DNA of 64,000 nt from assembly GCA_015698285.1 (NCBI GenBank), contig CP048685.1:496001-560000 (forward strand). Direction: 5' to 3'. Positions within the stretch are counted from its first letter, which is position 1, and each line of letters begins with the position of its first letter. The stretch comes from Candidatus Nitronauta litoralis. Its GTDB lineage: Bacteria; Nitrospinota; Nitrospinia; Nitrospinales; Nitrospinaceae. This document shows positions 13,636-28,189 of the stretch, in pieces. The notes under the pieces are model-generated. The model ran no database searches and was not told the DNA's origin. It saw only the letters and a program-made list of their open reading frames with translations. The position numbers were made by a program, and so were the translations under genes.

Positions 13636-14125
13636 ATGATTAAAAACTTATACGTTTGCATGGTTACGAGTCAGAATGAGCAAGAAGCTTTCGTCCAAAC
13701 CTATTGGGCGCGTGCAAGCTTCATGGGCGAGGCCATCAAGAAAATTCTGGATGCCGCAAAAAAAAAATGAATAACGAGTCTTCTGGTATGTGTTGCATGA
13801 TGAAGAACACAAAGAAGATTAGGAACAATTCTTTACTAACGAAAACCTGAATACCTCTGAAAAAATTATAGAGCACATAGGAGGCAATCAAAAAAATTCG
13901 ATTCAAAATGGATTTGTTACCTTAACCTCCTATCCGGAGGAAGGGGGGGCCAATCTAAAAATCTCAAACCATAAAAGAATCGCCATTCTTACTTACTCCA
14001 AGGAAATAGCTAGCCAGTATTCGAAACTGCTCGAAGAAGAGGGTTATCCCTTGGTTGATGATTTGAAGAGTATTGAATTTGGAATGCACCACTGGCACTA
14101 CCGTTTACACGGAAGCCTGTCATGA
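13636..14125 (+). pseudogene. Degenerate gene of unknown function
   Basis: An ATG at 13636 opens 44 residues (MIKNLYVCMVTSQNEQEAF to ILDAAKKK) that stop at an A-run. One base out of phase the coding signal continues: FWYVLHDEEHKED, TAG, then EQFFTNENLNTSEKIIEHIGG, through KRIAILTYSKEIASQYSKLLEEEGY, to a TGA at 14123. Joining them needs one frameshift at the poly-A and reading through TAA (about 13773) and TAG. The restored product would be about 160 residues and contains no family I recognise. Position between a radical-SAM gene and a dispersed repeat suggests decayed accessory DNA. Confidence 0.6.
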
Positions 14126-14179
14126 GTCTATCGAAGAAAAGGGCGGCAGCGGGATTCGGACAATCAAGTGACAACCATC

Positions 14180-14265
14180 CTTCATTGCTGTAGAAACAAG
14201 AAGGCATTGAACATTTAGGATGCCCCACTTCGACAAGCTCAGTGGAACATCATTAACGAGAAGTC
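14180..14265. repeat. Dispersed intergenic repeat copy
   Basis: Contains GGCATTGAACATTTAGGATG and CCCACTTCGACAAGCTCAGT. Close relatives of these words recur near 39850-39990 (GGATGCACCACTTCGGCAAGC and CATTGAACATTGAAGG), and the complementary TGAGCCTGTCGAAGG theme recurs at 39940 and, in degenerate form, at 40530 and 43275. It looks like one copy of a genome-wide non-coding repeat family. Confidence 0.5.
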
Positions 14266-14315
14266 TTGATCCCTGATTACTAAAAACCCGTTCCCAAAGC
14301 TAGAAAAACAACGGT

Positions 14316-15269
14316 ATGACATCAGAAACAACTTCCCGCTTTCAATCTTTCACCCGAAAGTGCTCCCTCATTTTTTCAACGGGGCTTATTTTCTGGCTCG
14401 TGTCGGAGGGATTGTTCTACGGCCTGATGCGGCCAACGGATTCCGCCCTTGGATATGCCATTACCGGGGCGATCTACTGTTACTCCGCCTGGCTTTTTTT
14501 AATCGTGGTCTCGCACTTTAATGTAAGAAACCTGCCGGCCCTGTTCATCGCAGGTGGATTTTTCGGCTGGATGGTTGAAGGCGTTCTGGTCAACACGATG
14601 TACGGTGTGCCCGATACACCGTTCCCCTATTCCATACCGGTGACCGGACTCTCCTGGCATGCTCTGCTGACGGTCATGGTCGGGTTGTACGCCACCCGCA
14701 GGGCGCTGAAAACAACGGCCAGCACTTTCCGGCTGGCTGCCTTCATCGGGGTATTCTGGGGATTGTGGGCTTCCACCTGGCGCACTGCCGATCCAACCAT
14801 TCAGGTGAATCCTGAGTCCTTTTTCTCATACAGTTTCACACTCATTTTTCTATTCGTCACGGGTCACCTCATCTGGCAGAAAAACGCCCGCATTCCCCTC
14901 TCCTTCAACAAGTGGGAAGTCCGGGCCGCCTGTTGCATCACCCTTCTCTGGTTCGGTGCGGTTACCGTTATCCAACGCCCTATGGCCGTTCTCATCCTTC
15001 CGCCCCTTTTGGCCTTGATGTATTTTGCTCTCAGAAAAAATAAAGAAAGGGAGAAAACCGGAAACCTGCTGACTGAACTTGCTGATGAAATACCCGTCAC
15101 CCGTTATCTGGCGTTTTTTATCGTTCCCCTGATCGCCAGCGGCATTTACGAAAATACGGTGGGCATCCCGAACTTTGAATACTTTCTTGTAGGCGTTATC
15201 GTCGGCACCGGCATTATCGGAACCATTGCTTTCATCGTTTGCCTGACAAAACTGCATAAGATGGAATAA
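14316..15269 (+). CDS. Polytopic inner-membrane protein of unknown function
   Basis: 317 residues with about nine hydrophobic segments, starting at SLIFSTGLIFWLVSEGLFYG and ending at FLVGVIVGTGIIGTIAFIV. Conserved-looking polar positions inside the membrane include WMVEGVLVNTMYG and TGLSWHAL. It has no transporter signature I can name. It precedes the monohaem cytochrome gene by 90 bases on the same strand and could be co-transcribed with it. Confidence 0.75.
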   Translation: MTSETTSRFQSFTRKCSLIFSTGLIFWLVSEGLFYGLMRPTDSALGYAITGAIYCYSAWLFLIVVSHFNVRNLPALFIAGGFFGWMVEGVLVNTMYGVPDTPFPYSIPVTGLSWHALLTVMVGLYATRRALKTTASTFRLAAFIGVFWGLWASTWRTADPTIQVNPESFFSYSFTLIFLFVTGHLIWQKNARIPLSFNKWEVRAACCITLLWFGAVTVIQRPMAVLILPPLLALMYFALRKNKEREKTGNLLTELADEIPVTRYLAFFIVPLIASGIYENTVGIPNFEYFLVGVIVGTGIIGTIAFIVCLTKLHKME

Positions 15270-15359
15270 AAAATATCGGCAAGCGATCTTTTTATACAGA
15301 GGACTGCGGAGTTATACTAAAGGGAGAATCTATTATTTCGATTTATAAGGAGAGGCACT

Positions 15360-15863
15360 ATGCGTCGCATTTCCCCATTCTTTACCGGTTTTTTTGCTTT
15401 GATGTTCATTCTATCTGCAACCAATGCATCAGGCTGGACCCTTTCGGCCAATCCTGGCAAAAAAACCAGTGATGGGATCGAATTCGAACCCGCCTGCCCG
15501 CAAATCCGTAACACTAAAAAAGCTCCGGATGAAATCTACAATCTGAAAAACCCGCTCAAGGCCTCGCGCGAAAATATTTTCGCGGGACAAACCCTGTTCC
15601 ACTTCGATGCCGAACCGGGACCCTGCCGGCTGTGCCACGGTATCAGCGGAAACGGACTTGGCATACTGTTTCGCGAACTGTCCCCGGGATCACGAAACTT
15701 TACCTGCGATCACACTATGCAAAATATTCCCGACGGACAACTGTTCTGGATCATCAAAAACGGTTCGGAGGGCACTGCCATGCCAGCCTTCACCAATCTG
15801 GACGACGATCAAATCTGGCAACTGATCCTGTACATCCGGCATTTCGCGGACATGGATTTGTAA
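15360..15863 (+). CDS. Periplasmic monohaem c-type cytochrome
   Basis: 167 residues. A Sec signal ends near ATNASG, and an AAGGAGAGG ribosome binding site is present. One haem motif, CRLCHG, sits near residue 83, followed by a GTAMPAF segment that supplies the likely axial Met and the usual C-terminal helix DDDQIWQLILYIRHF: the class I cytochrome c layout. A 60-residue extension lies between the signal and the haem domain. It should act as a soluble periplasmic electron carrier. Confidence 0.88.
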   Translation: MRRISPFFTGFFALMFILSATNASGWTLSANPGKKTSDGIEFEPACPQIRNTKKAPDEIYNLKNPLKASRENIFAGQTLFHFDAEPGPCRLCHGISGNGLGILFRELSPGSRNFTCDHTMQNIPDGQLFWIIKNGSEGTAMPAFTNLDDDQIWQLILYIRHFADMDL

Positions 15864-15891
15864 AGGGTTTGTAAGGGAAGGTTTGCTTTCT

Positions 15892-16131
15892 TTAACCTTT
15901 TAATTTTCCCACAATAAAGAGCAGGATCACGGCTCCCACCGTGGCAGTGACGAGGGACCCGATCATCCCGACAGCACTGATTCCGAGCAAACCAAAAACA
16001 AAGCCGCCAATAAAAGCACCAATAATACCAACAACCATATTGCTGACCAGCCCCATACCGCTGCCTTTCATGAAGTTTCCTGCAAGCCAGCCGGCAATGG
16101 CACCGATGATTAAAAACGAAATCATATCCAT
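15892..16131 (-). CDS. GlsB/YeaQ/YmgE family small membrane protein
   Basis: 79 residues in three hydrophobic segments. It starts MDMISFLIIGAIAGWLAG and contains GMGLVSNMVVGIIGAFIGGF, the signature of the transglycosylase-associated (GlsB/YeaQ) stress-protein family. Length is typical. An AGGAGG box precedes the ATG. Members are stress-induced inner-membrane proteins of unclear mechanism. It converges with the cytochrome gene, with 28 bases between the stops. Confidence 0.92.
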   Translation of the reverse strand: MDMISFLIIGAIAGWLAGNFMKGSGMGLVSNMVVGIIGAFIGGFVFGLLGISAVGMIGSLVTATVGAVILLFIVGKLKG

Positions 16132-16193
16132 AACAGCCTCCTGATAGATTTTTTTGGCAAAAACTTTTGGGAACCTGAAGTGAAGCTACCGCT

Positions 16194-16504
16194 TTAAATG
16201 AGGTTGCGGTCAGACTGTGTCTTCAGAATATCGAAAGCCCGTTGGTGGAAGAGTTGCGCATAATAAACCGGATCTGCGTCATCAGTTCCTGTCCCGTTTC
16301 ACGAACTCAATTTTTTGTTTATAGTGCCTGGGCTCATCGTCCAGGATCTGAATCACTTGCTATCACCAGATTGAATTGCTTCTTGATAAGAGTTCCGGGT
16401 TTGGCCATGGGGGCACCACATGCAAACGGCCAAAATGCTTCCTGCTGGCGGATGCGCGAAGATCATGTATCGTGCAGGCGTACCTTTACCTCTTCGGGTT
16501 CCAT
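16194..16504 (-). pseudogene. Possible decayed gene in an 840-base gap
   Basis: The gap between 16131 and 16973 has no intact gene. On the minus strand, protein-like pieces appear in succession but in different frames: MEPEEVKVRLHDT, then QQEAFWPFACGAPMAKPGTL to FNLVIASDSD, then QILDDEPRHYKQKIEFVKRD, and finally DDADPVYYAQLFHQRAFDIL ending at a stop at 16194. Restoring one frame needs at least two frameshifts and a stop readthrough. I cannot name a family, and chance cannot be ruled out. The rest of the gap, 16505-16972, shows only AT-rich sequence. Confidence 0.35.
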
Positions 16505-16972
16505 TCTTACTTCGATAAAAAACAACAAAGGCTAAAAATCCTTTTTCCGCACCACCTGCTATAATAGAGTTTTTCCTACTTTAAAATTACATATATTCCT
16601 ACAATATTAACTCAAGAGCGAGAAAGGCTCAGCTTTTTTAAAAATCGAAGGGAATCCATCTCCAATTGCGCACAATTACTTTGAAAATTCCGAATCATCT
16701 ACATTAGACTCCAAAATCCATTGACAGGATGCTCCTCTACCGTATAATCCGCAAAACGCCTAAATATTCAGTAGTTAGGTCCCGTCAACATGGAATAACG
16801 GCACGGGATTATAATTGAAAAATAAATACCATTTTCTTCAGTTCAACCCATTTTTGCAGTTGTTTTTCGGGGGCTGAGCCATGGTAATCTTGACATACAG
16901 TAAACAAAAGGAATCGCTCTGGCGTTGGCTGGTGCCATTTCCGCCCTGTTCAAATTGAATTTGAGGGAATTT

Positions 16973-19144
16973 ATGTTCAATACCTTTAGAAATAGTCTGT
17001 TAGTCACTGCTATCTGTATTTTCGGATTGGCAGCGGCTCCTGTTGCCAGCGTTGCCAAAAAAGCGACAGAAGCTTCAATTTCCCTGGTTGATGGGGTTGC
17101 TGTTGCTCCAAACGGCGACATTTATATTTCCCAGCGCGATCACAACATTGTCACTCGCGTCGATTCGAAAGGCTTGATTCACACCATAGCTGGAACCGGT
17201 AAGTCCGGATTCTCCGGAGATGGTGGGCCGGCCAACAAAGCACTCCTGAGAATGCCGGCAGGCCTGCATTTTGACAAAGCGGGTAACCTCTACATTGCAG
17301 ACCGTGAAAATCACCGTGTGCGCAAAGTAGATACCAATGGCAACATTTCCACTATTGCAGGGAATGGTACCGCAGGATTCAGCGGCGATGGTGGACCGGC
17401 CACCCAGGCCAGCATTAACCTGCCCTCCGGGGTGACCTCGGACAGTAAGGGTAATCTTTACATTTCCGACAGATCCAACAACCGTATCCGCAAGGTCGAT
17501 ACCAATGGCACCATTAGCACCTATGCTGGTAACGGCAATGAAGGCTATGTTGGGGACAACGGTCCTGCACTCAAAGCTACGCTGGATAAGCCCTTTGGTA
17601 TTACCATGGACCCCAAAGACAATCTGATCATTGCAGACCGGGGCAATAACCGGATTCGCAAGGTAACCCCCAACGGCATCATCACCACCATCGGGGGAGA
17701 CGGTGGCTTTTATTTTATTGGAGACAATGGACCAGCATACAGGGCCAGCGTTGCAGGCCCCACAGGAGTTGCTCTCGATTCAAAAGGCAACCTCTTCATC
17801 GCGGACAACTACAACAATCGCGTGCGGGTCATCGACAACCTCGGTATGATCCGGACCTTCGCCGGCACGGGAACCCAGGAATATAACGGGGACTCGGAAG
17901 TCGCCCGGGAAACCAATCTTAGAAAGCCGTTCGCCATTGCTATTGATCAAAACGACAATTTGATTGTGGCGGACCGCTCCCATTACCGGATTCGCAGAAT
18001 TGATCCTCAGGGTAGCAAGGTGGAAACTGTTGCGGGTGACGGTGTCAAAATGTTTGGTGGTGATGGCGGGCCCGCAACGGGCGCGCGCCTCAACTTCCCT
18101 CACGGGATTGTCGTCGACAAGAACGACAACGTCATTTTTGCCGACAAGGCACACTTCCGAATCAGGAAAATCGCTCCCGATGGAATTATCAACACCATCG
18201 CAGGTAACGGGATTCGAGGAAACATCGGTGACGGGGGACCGGCCCTCGAAGCTTCCGTTTACCCCACTTACCTGTCACAAAATAAAAAAGGTGAGATCTA
18301 TTTCATGAGCCCGAGTGGGTTTGTGAGCATTGTGCGCAAGCTTAAGGTTGATGGAACAATTGAACTTGCCCTGTCGACCAGCGACCGGGAATATCAAAAG
18401 GGCGTGAGCACTGGCAAACACGTTGGCGCATCCTCACAGTCTGATATTGTTGCGATCACACAATTCTCGGACATTCTCCCCGACGGCAAGGGCAACCTCA
18501 TCATTGCCGACCGCATCAATCATCAGCTAAGGAAATTTGATGCTTCCGGAAAATTCACCACCATCGCCGGTACCGGGGAATCCGGTTATTACGGAGACGG
18601 AGGTCCTGCGACAGAAGCTGCATTTCGCGACCCACGAACTCTGGAGATGGACAAGGATGGCAATATTTATGTCGGAGATGCTGCCAACAATGTCATTCGG
18701 AAGATTGACAAAAACGGTATCATCACCACCGTTGCCGGGAACACCAGATTTGAAGACAGTGGAGATGGTGGACCCGCCATCAAAGCCGGGATCAAATCCA
18801 TTGACGATATCGTAATATCGCCATCGGGCGAAATGCATATCGTGGAATCGGGTACTCATGCGGTCCGAAAAATTGCCAAAGACGGAACTATTTCGACCGT
18901 GGTAGGACGACCCGGTATTCAAGGGTATTTTGGAGACGGGGGACCGGCTACCAAAGCGATGCTGAAAACTCCCACTTGTCTGGCATTTGACTCCAAAGGC
19001 AATATGTATATCACTGACATGGGAAATAACCGTATCCGCAAGGTCGATAATAAAGGAATCATCACCACCTTTGCGGGCAGTGGACATTTTGGGTGGGCCA
19101 ATGAAGGTGAAGAGGTCCAGATTTATTTCCAGAATTTTCCCTAG
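16973..19144 (+). CDS. Secreted NHL-repeat beta-propeller protein
   Basis: About 723 residues. The ATG at 16973 follows GAGGG and gives a Sec signal ending near ASVAKKA; an upstream in-frame extension lacks coding character. The protein is a run of about eleven NHL-type blades, each with the pattern TIAGxGxxGxxGDGGPAxxA, a Pro-Gly turn, D-x-x-GN-x-YI-x-D, and N-x-IRKVD. This is probably two six-bladed propellers. One region around residues 430-490 has lost the repeat. Such propellers are binding scaffolds in the periplasm or on the surface. It is followed by a secreted small protein 170 bases later. Confidence 0.9.
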   Translation: MFNTFRNSLLVTAICIFGLAAAPVASVAKKATEASISLVDGVAVAPNGDIYISQRDHNIVTRVDSKGLIHTIAGTGKSGFSGDGGPANKALLRMPAGLHFDKAGNLYIADRENHRVRKVDTNGNISTIAGNGTAGFSGDGGPATQASINLPSGVTSDSKGNLYISDRSNNRIRKVDTNGTISTYAGNGNEGYVGDNGPALKATLDKPFGITMDPKDNLIIADRGNNRIRKVTPNGIITTIGGDGGFYFIGDNGPAYRASVAGPTGVALDSKGNLFIADNYNNRVRVIDNLGMIRTFAGTGTQEYNGDSEVARETNLRKPFAIAIDQNDNLIVADRSHYRIRRIDPQGSKVETVAGDGVKMFGGDGGPATGARLNFPHGIVVDKNDNVIFADKAHFRIRKIAPDGIINTIAGNGIRGNIGDGGPALEASVYPTYLSQNKKGEIYFMSPSGFVSIVRKLKVDGTIELALSTSDREYQKGVSTGKHVGASSQSDIVAITQFSDILPDGKGNLIIADRINHQLRKFDASGKFTTIAGTGESGYYGDGGPATEAAFRDPRTLEMDKDGNIYVGDAANNVIRKIDKNGIITTVAGNTRFEDSGDGGPAIKAGIKSIDDIVISPSGEMHIVESGTHAVRKIAKDGTISTVVGRPGIQGYFGDGGPATKAMLKTPTCLAFDSKGNMYITDMGNNRIRKVDNKGIITTFAGSGHFGWANEGEEVQIYFQNFP

Positions 19145-19313
19145 AACCTGACGAGGACAAAACAACTTTTTACAATTCGTTAATAATAACCAAAGTGAGA
19201 CTCCAGAGTTTGTGCGGACCCTACCCCAGGCTAAACGTTTTATGCCCGGGCAAACTGTCCCCAAAACAATCAATAAATTTCAGGAGGCTCCCCGAAATGC
19301 TTGGAGTGGTTTC

Positions 19314-19826
19314 ATGTTGAAATCCCGAACTATCGTCACCGGGCTCTTTTTGAGCGTTTGTCTAATAGGATTCACCCAACCTGTTTTTGCTGGAGATACT
19401 GATGCTATGACCAAAGTGTTATCACAGGTCGATGCCAAGGTGTGTACCGCTCCAAAAGACCTCAAACAGTATTACACTAAAGAAATGGTCATCATTTTTG
19501 ACGACAAGCGCATTATGCTTGATTCACGTATCAAAGACTACGAAGGCATGATGTCCGACCTTGTTGGCCTGAAATGCACCGTAGATCGAAAAATCCTGAG
19601 CAAGGGTCTGGGTAGCAAAAGTGCGTTTATCCTCGTCGATGAAATGGTCAGCGTCACTTCCAAATCCGGACACATTGACGAGCGGCAGCACAGCGTCTGC
19701 ACCTATGGTTTTCTCAATGCAGGCGGCTCCTGGAAAATTGCGCACGAGCATTGTTCCAGCTTGCCAGACTACACCATCGTCCCCGGCGACGATGCTTTGT
19801 ACTATTTTCACAATCCTGTCTACTAA
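19314..19826 (+). CDS. Secreted protein with NTF2/SnoaL-like fold
   Basis: 170 residues from ATG 19314, chosen for its GGAG box and because it opens the signal peptide (LKSRTIVTGLFLSVCLIGF, cleavage after VFA). The mature part has the helix-rich start and curved-sheet pattern of NTF2-like proteins: KDLKQYYTKEMVIIFDDKR, FILVDEMVSVTSKSGHIDER, and CTYGFLNAGGSWKIAHEHCS, whose last strand is typical. Two Cys pairs may form disulfides. No active site is apparent. Confidence 0.65.
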   Translation: MLKSRTIVTGLFLSVCLIGFTQPVFAGDTDAMTKVLSQVDAKVCTAPKDLKQYYTKEMVIIFDDKRIMLDSRIKDYEGMMSDLVGLKCTVDRKILSKGLGSKSAFILVDEMVSVTSKSGHIDERQHSVCTYGFLNAGGSWKIAHEHCSSLPDYTIVPGDDALYYFHNPVY

Positions 19827-22133: not shown

Positions 22134-24299
22134 GTGTTTAAACTTCGTACCTTCATTCTCAGCCTTTGCCTTATACTTGGCGGCGTTTGGCTTGCGTGGG
22201 CTCAGGAAACGGACAACTGGGAATACTGGCAGAATCTTTATCACCAGGCACAGTCCGAATTGACCCAAAACGAAAGTGAAAAAAAAGCCTGGCTCTCAAA
22301 GGAGCCGGAAATCAAACGCACCAAGGTGACCGCCCGATTGGGGGACAATAAAGAGTTGGTAGTGAGCGATCTGCGTGGAAATAAGGAAGAAATGTGCCTG
22401 ACCTGCCATGATGGCATTGAACCCATGAGCACTTCTCACCCGGCTTCCTTCGGTTGTACCGTTTGTCATGGAGGGGATGCCACCTCCCTCAACAAAACCG
22501 AAGCTCATGCCAGTATGATTTATGATTCTACAACCGGAACTGGAAAACGCAATCCCTCAGCCTTGTCGGTGGTTCATCTCAGTTGCGGGCAAATTGGCTG
22601 CCATGCGGGACACACCGATTCCAGTAAAAACCATATCCATCGTGTACGCCGTTCCATGATGGGAACCCTTTCAGGAATGATTGCTGGTTTACGCTATCAA
22701 TGGGCAGCGCAATCAACACCCCAGGCTCAATACGGAGTATCACGGGTTCCTGCCCCTAATAACACTGAGGATGAACTTGCGGGAAAATTAAAACCAGAGT
22801 TGGAACCTCTTCCATTTTTCCTGGCCAAAAACCGCCGTCAACAAATTGAACAAGGACAAGCTACCGGCTCAGAAAAAGTATCGCATCATCCTGCAGATGG
22901 AGTTTTAAGGTCAACCTGCTTTCAATGTCACCTCGACGGGAAACCTGTATCCGGTGAATACCGCTCTCAAGGCTGCGCCGCCTGCCACGTTTCTTATTCC
23001 AGGGAGGGAACCTACGAGGGAATGGATCCGACAATCCCGAAGGACCAAACCGGACATCCCTCCCGTCACAGGATGACAGCCCTGCCGGAGAAGACGACCT
23101 GTACGAAATGCCATAAGTCTATGGGCATGGATAAAACCCGTATTCCCGGAACCCTGATAAAATCCATTCCATCTTTTGCCAAGGGTCACCCAGTTGAGGA
23201 TGTACACACCCAGGCAGGAATGGAATGCATAGACTGTCACAGTTCATTCGATGTAATGGGAGATGGAAATCTCTATTCGCGCCAGTATGAGGCGGTTGAA
23301 ATTGGTTGTGAAACCTGTCATGGAACGGTTGATCGCCACCCTCAAATTGAAAAAATTGATTCAAACGATCTGCGTGTTTTAAGGGAGAACCGTCATTACC
23401 TGAATAATCCCATAAAGCCAGGGGATTGGGCAGTTGTATCACGGCGTGGGAGAAAACTTTCAAATATCAAAATGCATGATGGCAACATCACCGTTTTCTC
23501 CAAGCGCGGAGAGAAATCCTGGAAAATTCCTTTAATCAAAGACGGGTCAGTACATCGTATTTCGAGACACAATGAAAAACTTGCATGCAATGCTTGCCAC
23601 TCTTCGTGGGTACCGCAATGTAAAGGCTGTCACCTGGTTTTTAATCCGAAAGAAAAGCCATCCCCATGGACAGGATACAAGGCTGAAATCAACTACAAAG
23701 AACCGACCCTTCTAATCGGCCCTGACTCCAAGGTGCGTCCGGCACACGCGATGCCTCTCAATACCCTGACCGCTCTTGATCCCAAGGGGAATTCTCTTCC
23801 TGTAATAAATGATGAAGGGGATTTTCAGGGTCGGTATCGTAAATTTGGTTTCACTAACCCCAGAGGGTATTCCGGAGCAAATACAATCAACGCAACCCAT
23901 CCACATTCGGTAGGCCCAAAAGTCCGATCGTGTTCATCCTGCCACCTTTCCACTGAAGCGCTGGGACTCGGTTCGTCTGATCTGAAAATAGGCCGGAAAT
24001 CCTCAGGCAAAAGGGATGCAGCAAAGCCGGTGATGCAGGGCAATATATACGGTACACTGGGAGAAAGGTCACCCTTGCCCAAAGGAACGATACAGGGCCA
24101 ACCCGTTGCAGGAAGTCATCAACCCGGCACCCGTTCCTTCAACCAGAAAGAACTGAATAGAATCCTTAAAGTCGGCAACTGTCTTCCTTGTCATGACAGG
24201 GAATCCGATCCGATTTATAAAAATATCGAAAAGAGTTACAAATTGGCAACCTTTAAAAAACATCGCGCCCGAATTAAAAAAGCTGAGGGCCAGCGATGA
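22134..24299 (+). CDS. Secreted 12-haem c-type cytochrome
   Basis: 721 residues from a GTG start, with a Sec signal ending at LAWAQ. Twelve haem-binding motifs are visible: eleven CXXCH (CLTCH, CTVCH, CFQCH, CAACH, CTKCH, CIDCH, CETCH, CNACH, CKGCH, CSSCH, CLPCH) and one CX4CH (CGQIGCH) in third place. Many extra His residues can serve as distal ligands. The order and spacing of motifs match the next gene, with which it overlaps by four bases, so the two are paralogues made as a unit. It should be a periplasmic or outer-surface electron-transfer protein. I know of no named family that fits. Confidence 0.88.
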   Translation: MFKLRTFILSLCLILGGVWLAWAQETDNWEYWQNLYHQAQSELTQNESEKKAWLSKEPEIKRTKVTARLGDNKELVVSDLRGNKEEMCLTCHDGIEPMSTSHPASFGCTVCHGGDATSLNKTEAHASMIYDSTTGTGKRNPSALSVVHLSCGQIGCHAGHTDSSKNHIHRVRRSMMGTLSGMIAGLRYQWAAQSTPQAQYGVSRVPAPNNTEDELAGKLKPELEPLPFFLAKNRRQQIEQGQATGSEKVSHHPADGVLRSTCFQCHLDGKPVSGEYRSQGCAACHVSYSREGTYEGMDPTIPKDQTGHPSRHRMTALPEKTTCTKCHKSMGMDKTRIPGTLIKSIPSFAKGHPVEDVHTQAGMECIDCHSSFDVMGDGNLYSRQYEAVEIGCETCHGTVDRHPQIEKIDSNDLRVLRENRHYLNNPIKPGDWAVVSRRGRKLSNIKMHDGNITVFSKRGEKSWKIPLIKDGSVHRISRHNEKLACNACHSSWVPQCKGCHLVFNPKEKPSPWTGYKAEINYKEPTLLIGPDSKVRPAHAMPLNTLTALDPKGNSLPVINDEGDFQGRYRKFGFTNPRGYSGANTINATHPHSVGPKVRSCSSCHLSTEALGLGSSDLKIGRKSSGKRDAAKPVMQGNIYGTLGERSPLPKGTIQGQPVAGSHQPGTRSFNQKELNRILKVGNCLPCHDRESDPIYKNIEKSYKLATFKKHRARIKKAEGQR

Positions 24300-26971
24300 T
24301 TGCAAAGCGAGGATGGGTTCTTTTTTGCCTGGTATTGATGGTTTTGTTTTCTTTCACAGGCTTGAACGCCCAGGAATTTGGTGGCGGATCACTATTTGAT
24401 TACGACTTTTCCGGATCCAGAAGCCTACAACCGGAAAACCCTCCAACCATTAGCGAAGAGAATCTACCCGACCCCGAACCCTCGGAAACACCGGAGAATC
24501 AGGAACCCACTTCGGCACCCGTTTTTCCTATGGAAAAACGATTCCTTAAAAAAAGTGTAGAGATACCACCTCCACCACCTCGCCGGACAGTTGAAGCCGG
24601 GGACATACGCGACCCTTTTTTCCTGATACGTGGGTATCGGGAAGATGCCAAGGATGCTCTTGAACCTGGTGTCACTATCGACGGTATCCGGTTCAACAGT
24701 TATGCAGACTCAGAGGAGTCGGAGTTAAAATTTTACCAGGATTCCAATTTCTCTCTTGAGGATGTGTTTGGAAAAATCCGGGTCGACAACCGGGATGAAG
24801 GCTGCCAGTTTTGCCATCATGGTATTGAAGAGATCAGTTCAAGCCACAAGCTTGAATGCACCGACTGCCATGGAGGCAATTCGGGAACTCGCAACAGAAG
24901 CCGTGCCCATAAAAGCATGGCGTCCAATCCTTCATCGCCGGAACACGCCGCCCGCTATTGCGGCAAGTGCCATGCCGATCAGGTTGCCTGGATGGAAAGA
25001 TCCCTCATGGCTACAGCGAAAGGAATCATTGACCAGACACATCGTGCCTGGGGTCATCCCTCAGGAAATAAAACAACAGCCAAAGAAACTCAGCAATCCG
25101 CCAAAAAAACAGACAAACCTGATGATTCAACAAAGAGCTCCAAAAATTCTGAACAAAAGGTTTCCAGTGAAGCAACCCCCGTACCATCAGGCCTTGTCAA
25201 AAACCATGCTCAGGATTTTCTCGATAAAAAATGTTTGCGTTGTCATCTGGGTTCCGAAGCTCCCCGGCGTACAGGAGACTACCGTTCCACAGGTTGCGCG
25301 GCTTGTCATATGGTTTACACCAATGACGGCAGCACGCTGACACGCGACCGCGCTGTGCAGCGATCCATTAAAGGTGGAGAGGAAGTCCGTACCCGATTCC
25401 TCCGCAAAGAGGCGGAAAACGCCATCGAAAAAAAACGAGCCTACCCTGTTGTGCACCAGCTCACAGTGGCCGTGCCAAGCGTGCAATGCGAGCATTGTCA
25501 CCAGAATAACGGTGTCGGAAATGAATACGAAGGCCTGTTTGCTACACCCGCCCGACCTAAAGATTCCCAAAAATTGACTGGACAGGATGATCCGGTATTG
25601 CACGGAAGACAGTATGAATTTTTAGTCCCCGACATCCACAGGGAACGCGGCATGCACTGCATCGACTGCCATTCTGCGAATGAGATGAAATCTCCTCCGG
25701 AAAAAAGCGAAACCCTGCATGACACGGTGACTATCCGTTGCGAAGACTGCCATGGGACTCATGAAAAGGGGCCCACAGGAAGAAAACTCGCTCAATCAAA
25801 CACGGGTGACAATCGACTGGTAAAGTTGGCGCGACTAAATCCCAATCTCAATCGTAAGTTAAGAGGCAAGGAAACCATCCTGATAACGGAAGCGGGCCAC
25901 CCCATGCCCCATATTTTTATCAGGAAAAATAAATGGGAACTGGTATCCAAAGTCACCGGCAAACGACACACCATTCCATTATTAAAGGATATGGACACAC
26001 GGCCGGTCGCCCATCGGGTCGGTCAGCATCTTCAAAAAGTAGAATGCCATGCCTGTCATGCACGGTGGTCTGCCAGCGAATGGGGCCTGCACACGATTAA
26101 AGAGAACCAATTCAACATTACCCAGTGGGAAAATTGGAGTTTTCCGGATCCCGTTCTGAATCATTTGAAACTCTCGAACAACCTCAATCGGGAAACGGAC
26201 ACCAGCCAATCCCTGCTCTGGCCTACTGTAAAAGGCAATCGCGAATCTCTTACAGGTGAATGGTCACCGGGTCTCTGGATAAACCTTCTAGCCCGATCCG
26301 ACTGGTCCACGATGATTCTGGGAAAAAACAAACGAGGCAAAGTCACCATACTGAAACCCAGACACCAGTATTTTGTAACCAACCCGGCATCTGATGAGAG
26401 CACAACACCTAGCCAGGCCAGCGTTCCTGCTCACACATCCGATAAACCAGCGCTGGTGCTGACCCCGCATGCGCCACACACCATTCGGCCAACTGCCAGA
26501 ACCTGCGAGGCATGTCATGAAAACCAGGAAGCCGTTGGACTGGGTGCTGATTATTTGCAGAACGTCGATAAAGGCAAAGGCTTCTTCGAAAAATGGAAAG
26601 AGGATGGAACGCTTCCAGACGATTTTCAGCTTAGCCAGAGCATTGCAGAAGATGGTACGGCACTGCAAACTGTTCTACCCAAACCGGCACGCGCCTTGAA
26701 CCTTAAGGAAGCCCAGCGTCTGCTGAAACCAAGTAAAAAATATGAAGTGAGTCGCTATCTTGACCTTAAGGAAAAAAATCTTGATGTATTACTCAATCGA
26801 AAGTCGTTTCCTTATGATCGATTGCATGAGTTGAAGAAACGAAAATACGGTGAACCTTCACGGCAGGAAGATCTATACTACAATAAGGAAACAGGTCAGT
26901 TTGAAACGTCTTTGCCGCTGGATAGCGCCTCACAGGACACAAGAGAGTCCAATGAGTTTTCCTTTGACTAG
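24296..26971 (+). CDS. Secreted 10-haem c-type cytochrome, paralogue of the preceding gene
   Basis: 891 residues. A signal peptide ends at LNAQ; a Pro/Glu-rich linker (residues about 40-100, including IPPPPPRR) comes before the haem part. Ten CXXCH motifs: CQFCHH, CTDCH, CGKCH, CLRCH, CAACH, CEHCH, CIDCH, CEDCH, CHACH, CEACH. Landmark blocks match the upstream protein, for example GCAACH after a YRST/YRSQ turn, ECIDCH/HCIDCH and EAVGLG/EALGLG. It lacks partners for haems 10 and 12 and carries a Lys/Ser/Thr-rich insert around residues 255-300 and a 150-residue C-terminal extension. ATGA overlap with the upstream gene indicates coupling. Confidence 0.88.
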   Translation: MIAKRGWVLFCLVLMVLFSFTGLNAQEFGGGSLFDYDFSGSRSLQPENPPTISEENLPDPEPSETPENQEPTSAPVFPMEKRFLKKSVEIPPPPPRRTVEAGDIRDPFFLIRGYREDAKDALEPGVTIDGIRFNSYADSEESELKFYQDSNFSLEDVFGKIRVDNRDEGCQFCHHGIEEISSSHKLECTDCHGGNSGTRNRSRAHKSMASNPSSPEHAARYCGKCHADQVAWMERSLMATAKGIIDQTHRAWGHPSGNKTTAKETQQSAKKTDKPDDSTKSSKNSEQKVSSEATPVPSGLVKNHAQDFLDKKCLRCHLGSEAPRRTGDYRSTGCAACHMVYTNDGSTLTRDRAVQRSIKGGEEVRTRFLRKEAENAIEKKRAYPVVHQLTVAVPSVQCEHCHQNNGVGNEYEGLFATPARPKDSQKLTGQDDPVLHGRQYEFLVPDIHRERGMHCIDCHSANEMKSPPEKSETLHDTVTIRCEDCHGTHEKGPTGRKLAQSNTGDNRLVKLARLNPNLNRKLRGKETILITEAGHPMPHIFIRKNKWELVSKVTGKRHTIPLLKDMDTRPVAHRVGQHLQKVECHACHARWSASEWGLHTIKENQFNITQWENWSFPDPVLNHLKLSNNLNRETDTSQSLLWPTVKGNRESLTGEWSPGLWINLLARSDWSTMILGKNKRGKVTILKPRHQYFVTNPASDESTTPSQASVPAHTSDKPALVLTPHAPHTIRPTARTCEACHENQEAVGLGADYLQNVDKGKGFFEKWKEDGTLPDDFQLSQSIAEDGTALQTVLPKPARALNLKEAQRLLKPSKKYEVSRYLDLKEKNLDVLLNRKSFPYDRLHELKKRKYGEPSRQEDLYYNKETGQFETSLPLDSASQDTRESNEFSFD

Positions 26972-27002
26972 CCTGTTGTTTGAAACTCCAAGGTAAAAGT
27001 AA

Positions 27003-27710
27003 ATGGACAATGTTCTAAAGAAAACAATTTTTTTCCTGCAGGCTTTCATTGTTATGCTATGCCTGAGTTTCAGTTTTACCGGGCAATCCATTGCTGCAGA
27101 TTCAATTTTCAAAAAGAACAAATGCACCCAATGTCACCGTTTGAGCCCAGACACCCCCCTGGAACAGCGCAAGGGACCCGACTTGTTTTTTGCTGGAGAC
27201 AAGTTCCAGGCCTCCTGGCTTGTCAACTGGCTGCAACAACCTGACCCGATCCGCCTCTCAGGCTTCATCGCCGACGCGGGATTTCTAAAAGGGAAACCAT
27301 CCATCGCGACACCCCACCCGAAGCTCGAAAAAGAATCAGCGGAAACCATCGTGGAAAATCTGATGAAATTGAAATCAGGTGCGCTGGAAAATACCCCCAC
27401 AGCTGAACTGGAAGAACCACTCAGTAAAGGCAAGCGTTTCAAATTTAAAATATTATTTGAAAGAGAGTATGGCTGCATCTCCTGTCATCAGTCTGTAAAT
27501 CTGGCGGGACAACCTCGTGGAGGTGTTTCCGGCCCAATACTCTTAGACGCGGGTGACCGATTAAACGCAGGCTGGGTATACCACTGGCTGAAAAACCCCG
27601 AGGTGTTTGAAAAACGCGGACGCATGCCACGGTTCAAGTTGAATGAGGAGGAATTGAAGGCCCTGACTCGATACGTTATGTGGCACAAAAAAAGCGGGGA
27701 TAAAAAATAA
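27003..27710 (+). CDS. Dihaem c-type cytochrome
   Basis: 235 residues, with a signal peptide ending near SIAA. Two class I haem domains: CTQCHRLSPDTP near residue 41 and CISCHQSVNLAG near residue 158. Each is followed by a GP-x-LxxAGDR/K and W-x-x-xWLxxP segment typical of cytochrome c domains (FAGDKFQASWLVNWLQQP; DAGDRLNAGWVYHWLKNP). This repeat shows the protein arose by internal duplication. RMPRFKL carries the axial Met of the second domain. Third gene of the cytochrome operon, 31 bases after the decahaem gene and overlapping the next by TAATG. Confidence 0.88.
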   Translation: MDNVLKKTIFFLQAFIVMLCLSFSFTGQSIAADSIFKKNKCTQCHRLSPDTPLEQRKGPDLFFAGDKFQASWLVNWLQQPDPIRLSGFIADAGFLKGKPSIATPHPKLEKESAETIVENLMKLKSGALENTPTAELEEPLSKGKRFKFKILFEREYGCISCHQSVNLAGQPRGGVSGPILLDAGDRLNAGWVYHWLKNPEVFEKRGRMPRFKLNEEELKALTRYVMWHKKSGDKK

Positions 27711-28189
27711 TGTCCAGTTTAAATTTTAAAAAGGCCGCTTTGGTTGCACTGCTTTTATTCTTTCCATTGTTTGCCGGTGGTTGTGGAGAAAAAAAAGATG
27801 ACCAACAAACTGAAAAGCCCCCGGCAACAGAGACAACAGAACCCGTTCCTGAATCACTGCAACCAGAACCTTCACCTGTAGTGAAAGCTCATCCGGTAAC
27901 GGCCAAAACCCGTGAAACCTACCAATGGTATTGTGCCCAGTGTCATGGCATTAAAGGGAAGGGAAACGGAATCAATGCGCCCCACACTGCGGTACCACCA
28001 CGCGACCACACCAAGTCCACATATCTGGAAACGCGAAGTGACGAACAGTTGTTCCACGTCATCAAGTTTGGTGGATTAGCCGGTGGCCGTGCTCCCTGTA
28101 TGCCGAGCTGGGGGCATACTCTGGATGACAACATGATCCATTCACTGGTTAACTATATCCGTGAATTATGCGGATGCGAGTACTTGTGA
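27710..28189 (+). CDS. Monohaem cytochrome c lipoprotein
   Basis: 159 residues. The signal ends in a lipobox (LFAGGC), so the protein is membrane-anchored through a lipid. A Pro/Glu-rich linker of about 45 residues precedes one haem domain, CAQCHGIKGKGNG, with GRAPCMPSWG giving the axial Met and NMIHSLVNYIREL the closing helix. A lipid anchor plus flexible tether suits a protein that collects or delivers electrons between soluble partners and the membrane. Last gene of the operon; it converges with the membrane protein to its right. Confidence 0.88.
   Translation: MSSLNFKKAALVALLLFFPLFAGGCGEKKDDQQTEKPPATETTEPVPESLQPEPSPVVKAHPVTAKTRETYQWYCAQCHGIKGKGNGINAPHTAVPPRDHTKSTYLETRSDEQLFHVIKFGGLAGGRAPCMPSWGHTLDDNMIHSLVNYIRELCGCEYL

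Follow-up and report, generated by a model that had tools for sequence, protein, structure and literature searches.

The 64,000-nucleotide stretch analysed here (the window) comprises bases 496001-560000 of the 3.92-Mb single-contig genome of Candidatus Nitronauta litoralis. Four genes for c-type cytochromes follow one another on its forward strand. P1 (22134..24299, +) has a GTG start and encodes a 721-residue, predicted periplasmic 12-haem cytochrome of the ExtM type, whose signal-peptide-like start runs to WLAWA/QE. P2 (24296..26971, +; 891 aa) encodes a predicted periplasmic 10-haem cytochrome, the constant partner of P1 and its ancient paralogue. The two smaller proteins are DI, a dihaem class I cytochrome c (27003..27710, +; 235 aa; Pfam Cytochrom_C), and MONO, a monohaem class I cytochrome (27710..28189, +; 159 aa). 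As read from the sequence, the N-termini of P1, P2 and DI are signal-peptide-like, and that of MONO carries a lipobox (..FAGGC).

A motif search found 11 CXXCH sites and one CX4CH site (CGQIGCH, residues 151-157; 22584..22604, +) in P1 and 10 CXXCH sites in P2; the sequences of DI and MONO contain two and one. Because the twelfth site of P1 is this CX4CH, the label “12-haem” holds only if it is counted, and with it the cluster totals 25 haem sites, in line with an earlier note on this DNA that had put the number at about 25. The open reading frames and motif counts likewise confirm the adjoining 12-haem and 10-haem genes with a 4-base overlap that it had described (ATGA), as well as its dihaem gene followed by an overlapping gene for a lipid-anchored monohaem cytochrome, the latter overlap being 1 bp (TAATG). 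P2 and DI are 31 bp apart. This spacing suggests that the four genes share one transcript; a promoter and terminator scan at the cluster gave signal near chance level.

Pfam searches with the large proteins returned only generic cytochrome c3/c7 domains. Both had been taken as unrecognised, yet both match the NCBIfam ExtM model (NF040943), P1 with 274.4 bits and P2 with 205.8 bits, well below its equivalog cut-off of 800; P2 also matches the ExtN/ExtO models, more weakly and again below the equivalog cut-offs. The ExtM trait of 12 haem sites is present in P1 (11 CXXCH and one CX4CH), and P2 has 10. The view that the cluster lies outside the classical Mtr, Omc, Nrf and Hao systems is supported. 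In Geobacter sulfurreducens, the 12-haem ExtM and 10-haem ExtN are encoded beside a Rieske protein and a cytochrome b (Jahan 2018, PMC5877670), and a conserved Geobacter cluster of 12-haem, 10-haem, Rieske and cytochrome b genes has been named a likely bc complex, the role of its several c-type cytochromes being called novel (Butler 2010, PMC2825233). P1 and P2 are homologous to ExtM and ExtN and stand in the same order, 12-haem then 10-haem, as in GSU2935-2930, where ExtO (Rieske), ExtP (cytochrome b), ExtQ and ExtS accompany them; their kind is likewise associated with Rieske/cytochrome b. Unlike the Geobacter locus, the window cluster has no rhodanese, porin, ExtKL or adjacent Rieske/cytochrome b, P2 is about twice the length of ExtN, and DI and MONO occur in place of ExtS.

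The P1 and P2 family profiles align with each other over 548 columns in hhalign (E 1.7e-75, 26% identity), which bears out the earlier observation of one order of motif blocks in both giants. In this alignment, P2 is without equivalents of P1 haem 10 (CKGCH) and haem 12 (CLPCH). We built a quick tree of 45 rows, with SH-aLRT support only and some long branches: the P1 clade, which contains ExtM, and the P2 clade each hold Nitrospinia, Nitrospirota and Desulfobacterota members. The duplication is thus older than these lineages, and by sequence P1 and P2 are ancient paralogues. The duplicated large cytochrome of the earlier note is therefore a homologous pair, but the duplication was not local, and a recent origin at this locus is ruled out by the two three-phylum clades. 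Within the tree, Nitrospinia P1 joins the P1 of bc operons from other phyla, and Nitrospinia P2 joins their P2 (SH-aLRT 96 each).

These operons came from a scan of 84,980 species genomes for the nearest P1 relatives outside Nitrospinota. In Nitrospirota and Desulfobulbales (L105, L106, L108 and L111), the operon encodes a Rieske protein, cytochrome b6, subunit IV, an octahaem cytochrome, a monohaem cytochrome, P1, P2, a second monohaem cytochrome and a tetrahaem cytochrome; Pfam on L105 detects Rieske, Cytochrome_B, Cytochrom_B_C and multiple class I domains. We found no published name for operons with the series Rieske-b6-IV-octahaem-monohaem-P1-P2. Their P1 and P2 are 36-37% and 33-35% identical to the window proteins, and the CX4CH site of P1 is common to the bc-operon homologues of L105, L106, L108, L109, L111 and L112. 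The arrangements differ: Nitrospirota and Desulfobulbales have one operon, with the MONO homologue directly upstream of P1, whereas in Nitrospinia the genes are split into two loci, DI is added, and MONO is a lipoprotein encoded downstream. Desulfarculaceae have the order P1-P2-Rieske-cytochrome b, as in Geobacter. Rieske and/or cytochrome b genes are present in 18 of the 29 P1-type loci outside Nitrospinota and in none of 31 loci with a single 12-haem paralogue (Fisher P 4e-8, only indicative since the loci are related); all these loci were picked by similarity and several contigs are short, and the contrast weighs more than the P value.

No Rieske or cytochrome b gene lies near P1 in any of the 67 Nitrospinota loci examined (some of which are two copies of one genome), and the earlier statement that the cluster contains no porin and no quinol oxidase holds for the neighbours tested. 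A Rieske-b6-IV-octahaem operon is found at ~3,654,400-3,659,400 of the same genome, 3.1 Mb from the window cluster, with a cytochrome b6 65% identical to that of L105. Lucker et al. 2013 (PMC3578206) describe an N. gracilis operon of this type as bc-like, with an atypical octahaem cytochrome. The operon resembles those of anammox Kuenenia (Kustd1480-1485 and Kuste4569-4574, hexa/octahaem) in its b6-like cytochrome b, five-helix subunit IV and octahaem cytochrome; unlike it, the anammox complexes have NAD(P) oxidoreductase subunits, and no P1/P2 pair is reported with the Kuenenia bc-octahaem operon (PMC12954380).

The small cytochromes of the window also have relatives in bc operons. MONO shares 40-50% identity with the monohaem protein encoded just upstream of P1 there, and DI is similar to two adjoining class I domains of the octahaem subunit (blastp E 5e-19 for the window DI, 1e-23 for a DI orthologue), a weaker resemblance than those of the other counterparts and one that could be general class I similarity. 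Since P1-P2, MONO and DI each resemble members of the bc operon, all four window genes appear to have counterparts in one bc operon elsewhere, DI less surely. The possibility that the cluster's partners simply lie elsewhere, which the earlier note had set against its own reading, is thereby largely borne out by the distant Rieske/b6/IV/octahaem operon, to which the cluster would be physically coupled.

P1 was found in 57 of the 77 Nitrospinota genomes searched. All of these belong to the order of the window (Nitrospinales) except G071, which has a weak partial relative; the relatives with named records are Nitrospinaceae/Nitrospina MAGs. The order P1-P2-DI-MONO, with 11+1, 10, 2 and 1 sites, recurs in most Nitrospinales loci fetched, and these have conserved flanks, with NHL and SnoaL-like genes on the upstream side and DUF1015-YsxC on the downstream side. 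The neighbourhood survey in Nitrospinota that had been proposed earlier thus finds the order largely kept, and the recurrent order, haem counts and occurrence, far more than chance would give, make the cluster an old, nearly universal trait of these nitrite oxidisers. Its neighbours are genes for NHL, SnoaL-like, GlgX, MFS/spermidine-synthase-like, DUF1015 and YsxC proteins (GlgX, DUF1015 and YsxC named from sequence). The NHL-repeat protein (739 aa, window 16925-19144) keeps its upstream place across the order, as does the SnoaL-like protein (window 19212-19826). Directly 5' of P1, many Nitrospinia encode an Hpt-like (histidine phosphotransfer) protein of ~105 aa (for example, L038:8345-8671 and L056:7512-7874), whereas no such gene was found 5' of P1 in the window or in neighbours from its genus.

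Natural deletions divide the cluster. P1 and P2 are missing from G030 (97% complete) and G006, where DI and MONO stay and the sequence is contiguous; in G006, the genes on the upstream side (NHL, SnoaL, GlgX and Hpt) lead straight into DI. Joint loss of P1 and P2 with DI-MONO kept is seen at loci L201 and L203, and L047 has P1-P2 without DI-MONO. P1/P2 thus form one unit and DI-MONO another, and the graded four-gene chain proposed earlier does not hold as a single unit. G030 keeps the bc-octahaem operon, and its NxrA shares 94% identity with the one in the window's genome. Because this near-complete Nitrospinales genome lost P1 and P2 yet keeps DI, MONO, bc and NxrA, the pair is accessory, and no obligate link of nitrite oxidation, the NXR route or the bc complex. 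That the bc complex does not depend on the pair also follows from the bc-octahaem operons without P1/P2 in G001, G030, G006 and anammox Kuenenia.

The cluster is a rearranged form of a known electron-transfer module and no wholly new system, since other bacteria encode a 12-haem/10-haem pair beside a cytochrome bc quinone enzyme. We favour, as rather probable, the reading that P1/P2 serve the quinone/bc complex as a non-catalytic relay of 22 haems, detached in the genome from its membrane partner. P1-P2 are of the ExtM/ExtN kind, the pair that in several phyla goes with a quinol:cytochrome c oxidoreductase of the Rieske/cytochrome b type (bc, b6f-like); in Nitrospinia they have been uncoupled in the genome from the membrane part with its octahaem subunit. 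We infer that the pair is coupled to the bc complex and, without catalysis of its own, would pass electrons between the octahaem/Rieske side and DI and the lipid-anchored MONO as carriers, which would give the complex a longer reach and more storage capacity. For a nitrite oxidiser, the relay could serve the quinone side: electrons would run in reverse, from cytochrome c to quinone, to support CO2 fixation, or forward when quinol derives from stored glycogen, hydrogen or formate, or both. A narrower version makes Nitrospinia P1/P2 a specialised 22-haem buffer or bridge from the high-potential cytochrome c pool to the bc-octahaem complex for reverse transport to quinone; we put it forward tentatively and hold it rather doubtful, and if true it would be a so far undescribed use of an ExtMN-type pair in an aerobic nitrite oxidiser. 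The missing adjacent Rieske/cytochrome b (0/67) and the existence of the bc operon without the pair count against a relay serving bc. What stands of the earlier dedicated periplasmic electron pathway is a multihaem periplasmic route built on a duplicated large cytochrome.

Structural comparison raises the alternative of catalysis: P1, P2 or both would be multihaem enzymes akin to OTR, NrfA or MccA, reducing or oxidising nitrogen, sulfur or metalloid oxyanions, with DI and MONO feeding them. The AlphaFold2 model of P1 (pLDDT 85.6, pTM 0.85) gave no Foldseek match in the PDB at E <= 0.001, the top rows being unrelated repeats, and that of P2 was weak (pLDDT 63), with no structural match. The sole match to the P1 model with Z of 2 or more is octahaem tetrathionate reductase (OTR, 1sp3; Z 6.5, rmsd 5.4, 294 residues), where a Z below 8 may reflect a common arrangement only. 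The two could share a haem-core fold; unlike OTR, P1 has 12 sites, no CXXCK active-site haem and an extra β-rich C-terminal part. Around haems 5-8, the P1 profile also hits NrfA and MccA (E 1e-5), and a match to the octaheme model TIGR04315 has E 2e-4. Set against its 12 haems, Nitrospinia P1 has nine non-motif histidines (counted in the sequences) with 95% conservation or more, so some haems would have another distal ligand or none, and an open-site catalytic haem in P1 is possible. However, the pattern C..C[HK] retrieved only CXXCH and no CXXCK from P1 or P2, the sequence matches are short and centred on haem motifs, and the association with bc genes suggests transfer: a catalytic role appears unlikely.

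The ExtM/ExtN kinship would also suit an outer-membrane conduit, with the cluster as the periplasmic portion of a system for extracellular electron exchange. Such a conduit has been proposed for the Geobacter ext clusters, of which extHIJKL-MNOPQS includes the porin-like ExtI (PMC5877670, PMC6148476); the Gly at +2 of the MONO lipobox would fit outer-membrane sorting. We give this little credence: an ExtI homologue is absent from the window's genome (E 0.001), with weak matches in 14 of 77 Nitrospinota, no ExtI is present in six non-Geobacter genomes with bc-linked pairs, and no porin family occurs among the neighbours tested. A dedicated relay from nitrite oxidoreductase to the terminal oxidase would accord with conservation through most of the nitrite-oxidising order, and mono- and dihaem cytochromes are the expected carriers from NXR (PMC3578206). 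It too seems quite improbable, as G030 retains its NxrA after a clean loss of P1 and P2, and G077 and G078 have a bc-linked pair without such an NxrA. Because of the loss in G030 we reject this role for P1/P2; DI/MONO, kept in G030, may still play it.

Nitrospinia are dominant marine nitrite oxidisers, and the relay that we favour bears on how they return electrons from nitrite, a high-potential donor, to quinone and NAD(P)H. It ties a conserved 25-haem locus, seemingly not discussed before, to the Rieske/b6/octahaem complex as a defined enzyme, with testable partners, and the lineages that lost exactly P1 and P2 are natural knock-outs. The pair itself is of a known kind (ExtM/ExtN, bc-associated), and the Nitrospinia split arrangement is what seems new: in the open-access papers searched, neither the P1-P2 cluster of Nitrospina nor the split arrangement nor its use in aerobic nitrite oxidisers turned up. 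Known from Geobacter that reduce metals and metalloids, the ExtM/ExtN pair is thereby extended to aerobic chemolithotrophs, its type being associated with bc complexes in several phyla.

Several further loci were observed alongside. At 13849-16879, the bc-P1-P2 operon of L105 (Thermodesulfovibrionales) goes on to encode a cupredoxin and a GltD-like NAD(P) oxidoreductase, much as in anammox Rieske/b complexes; in L153 (G001), two sets of Rieske-b-IV-octahaem genes are likewise flanked by a GltD-like gene. In G057, a 663-aa open reading frame with 27 CXXCH in a regular repeat (L047:1433-3424, +) lies ~6.6 kb upstream of P1, followed by a pentahaem frame containing an N stretch; neither is near the window cluster. 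L065:6473-10495 and L066:7107-11084 encode another protein, of 1330 aa, which has nine CXXCH sites plus a non-canonical one, adjoins other multihaem genes and has only a short motif stretch in common with P1. The P1 locus of L101, labelled Emcibacteraceae (Alphaproteobacteria), sits by identity with Nitrospina and is probably a mis-binned or mislabelled contig. The window's genome also holds two NxrA-like molybdoenzyme genes (~1,155 aa; G000:C1:1220343-1221827 and 3572928-3574418), which support its being that of a nitrite oxidiser.
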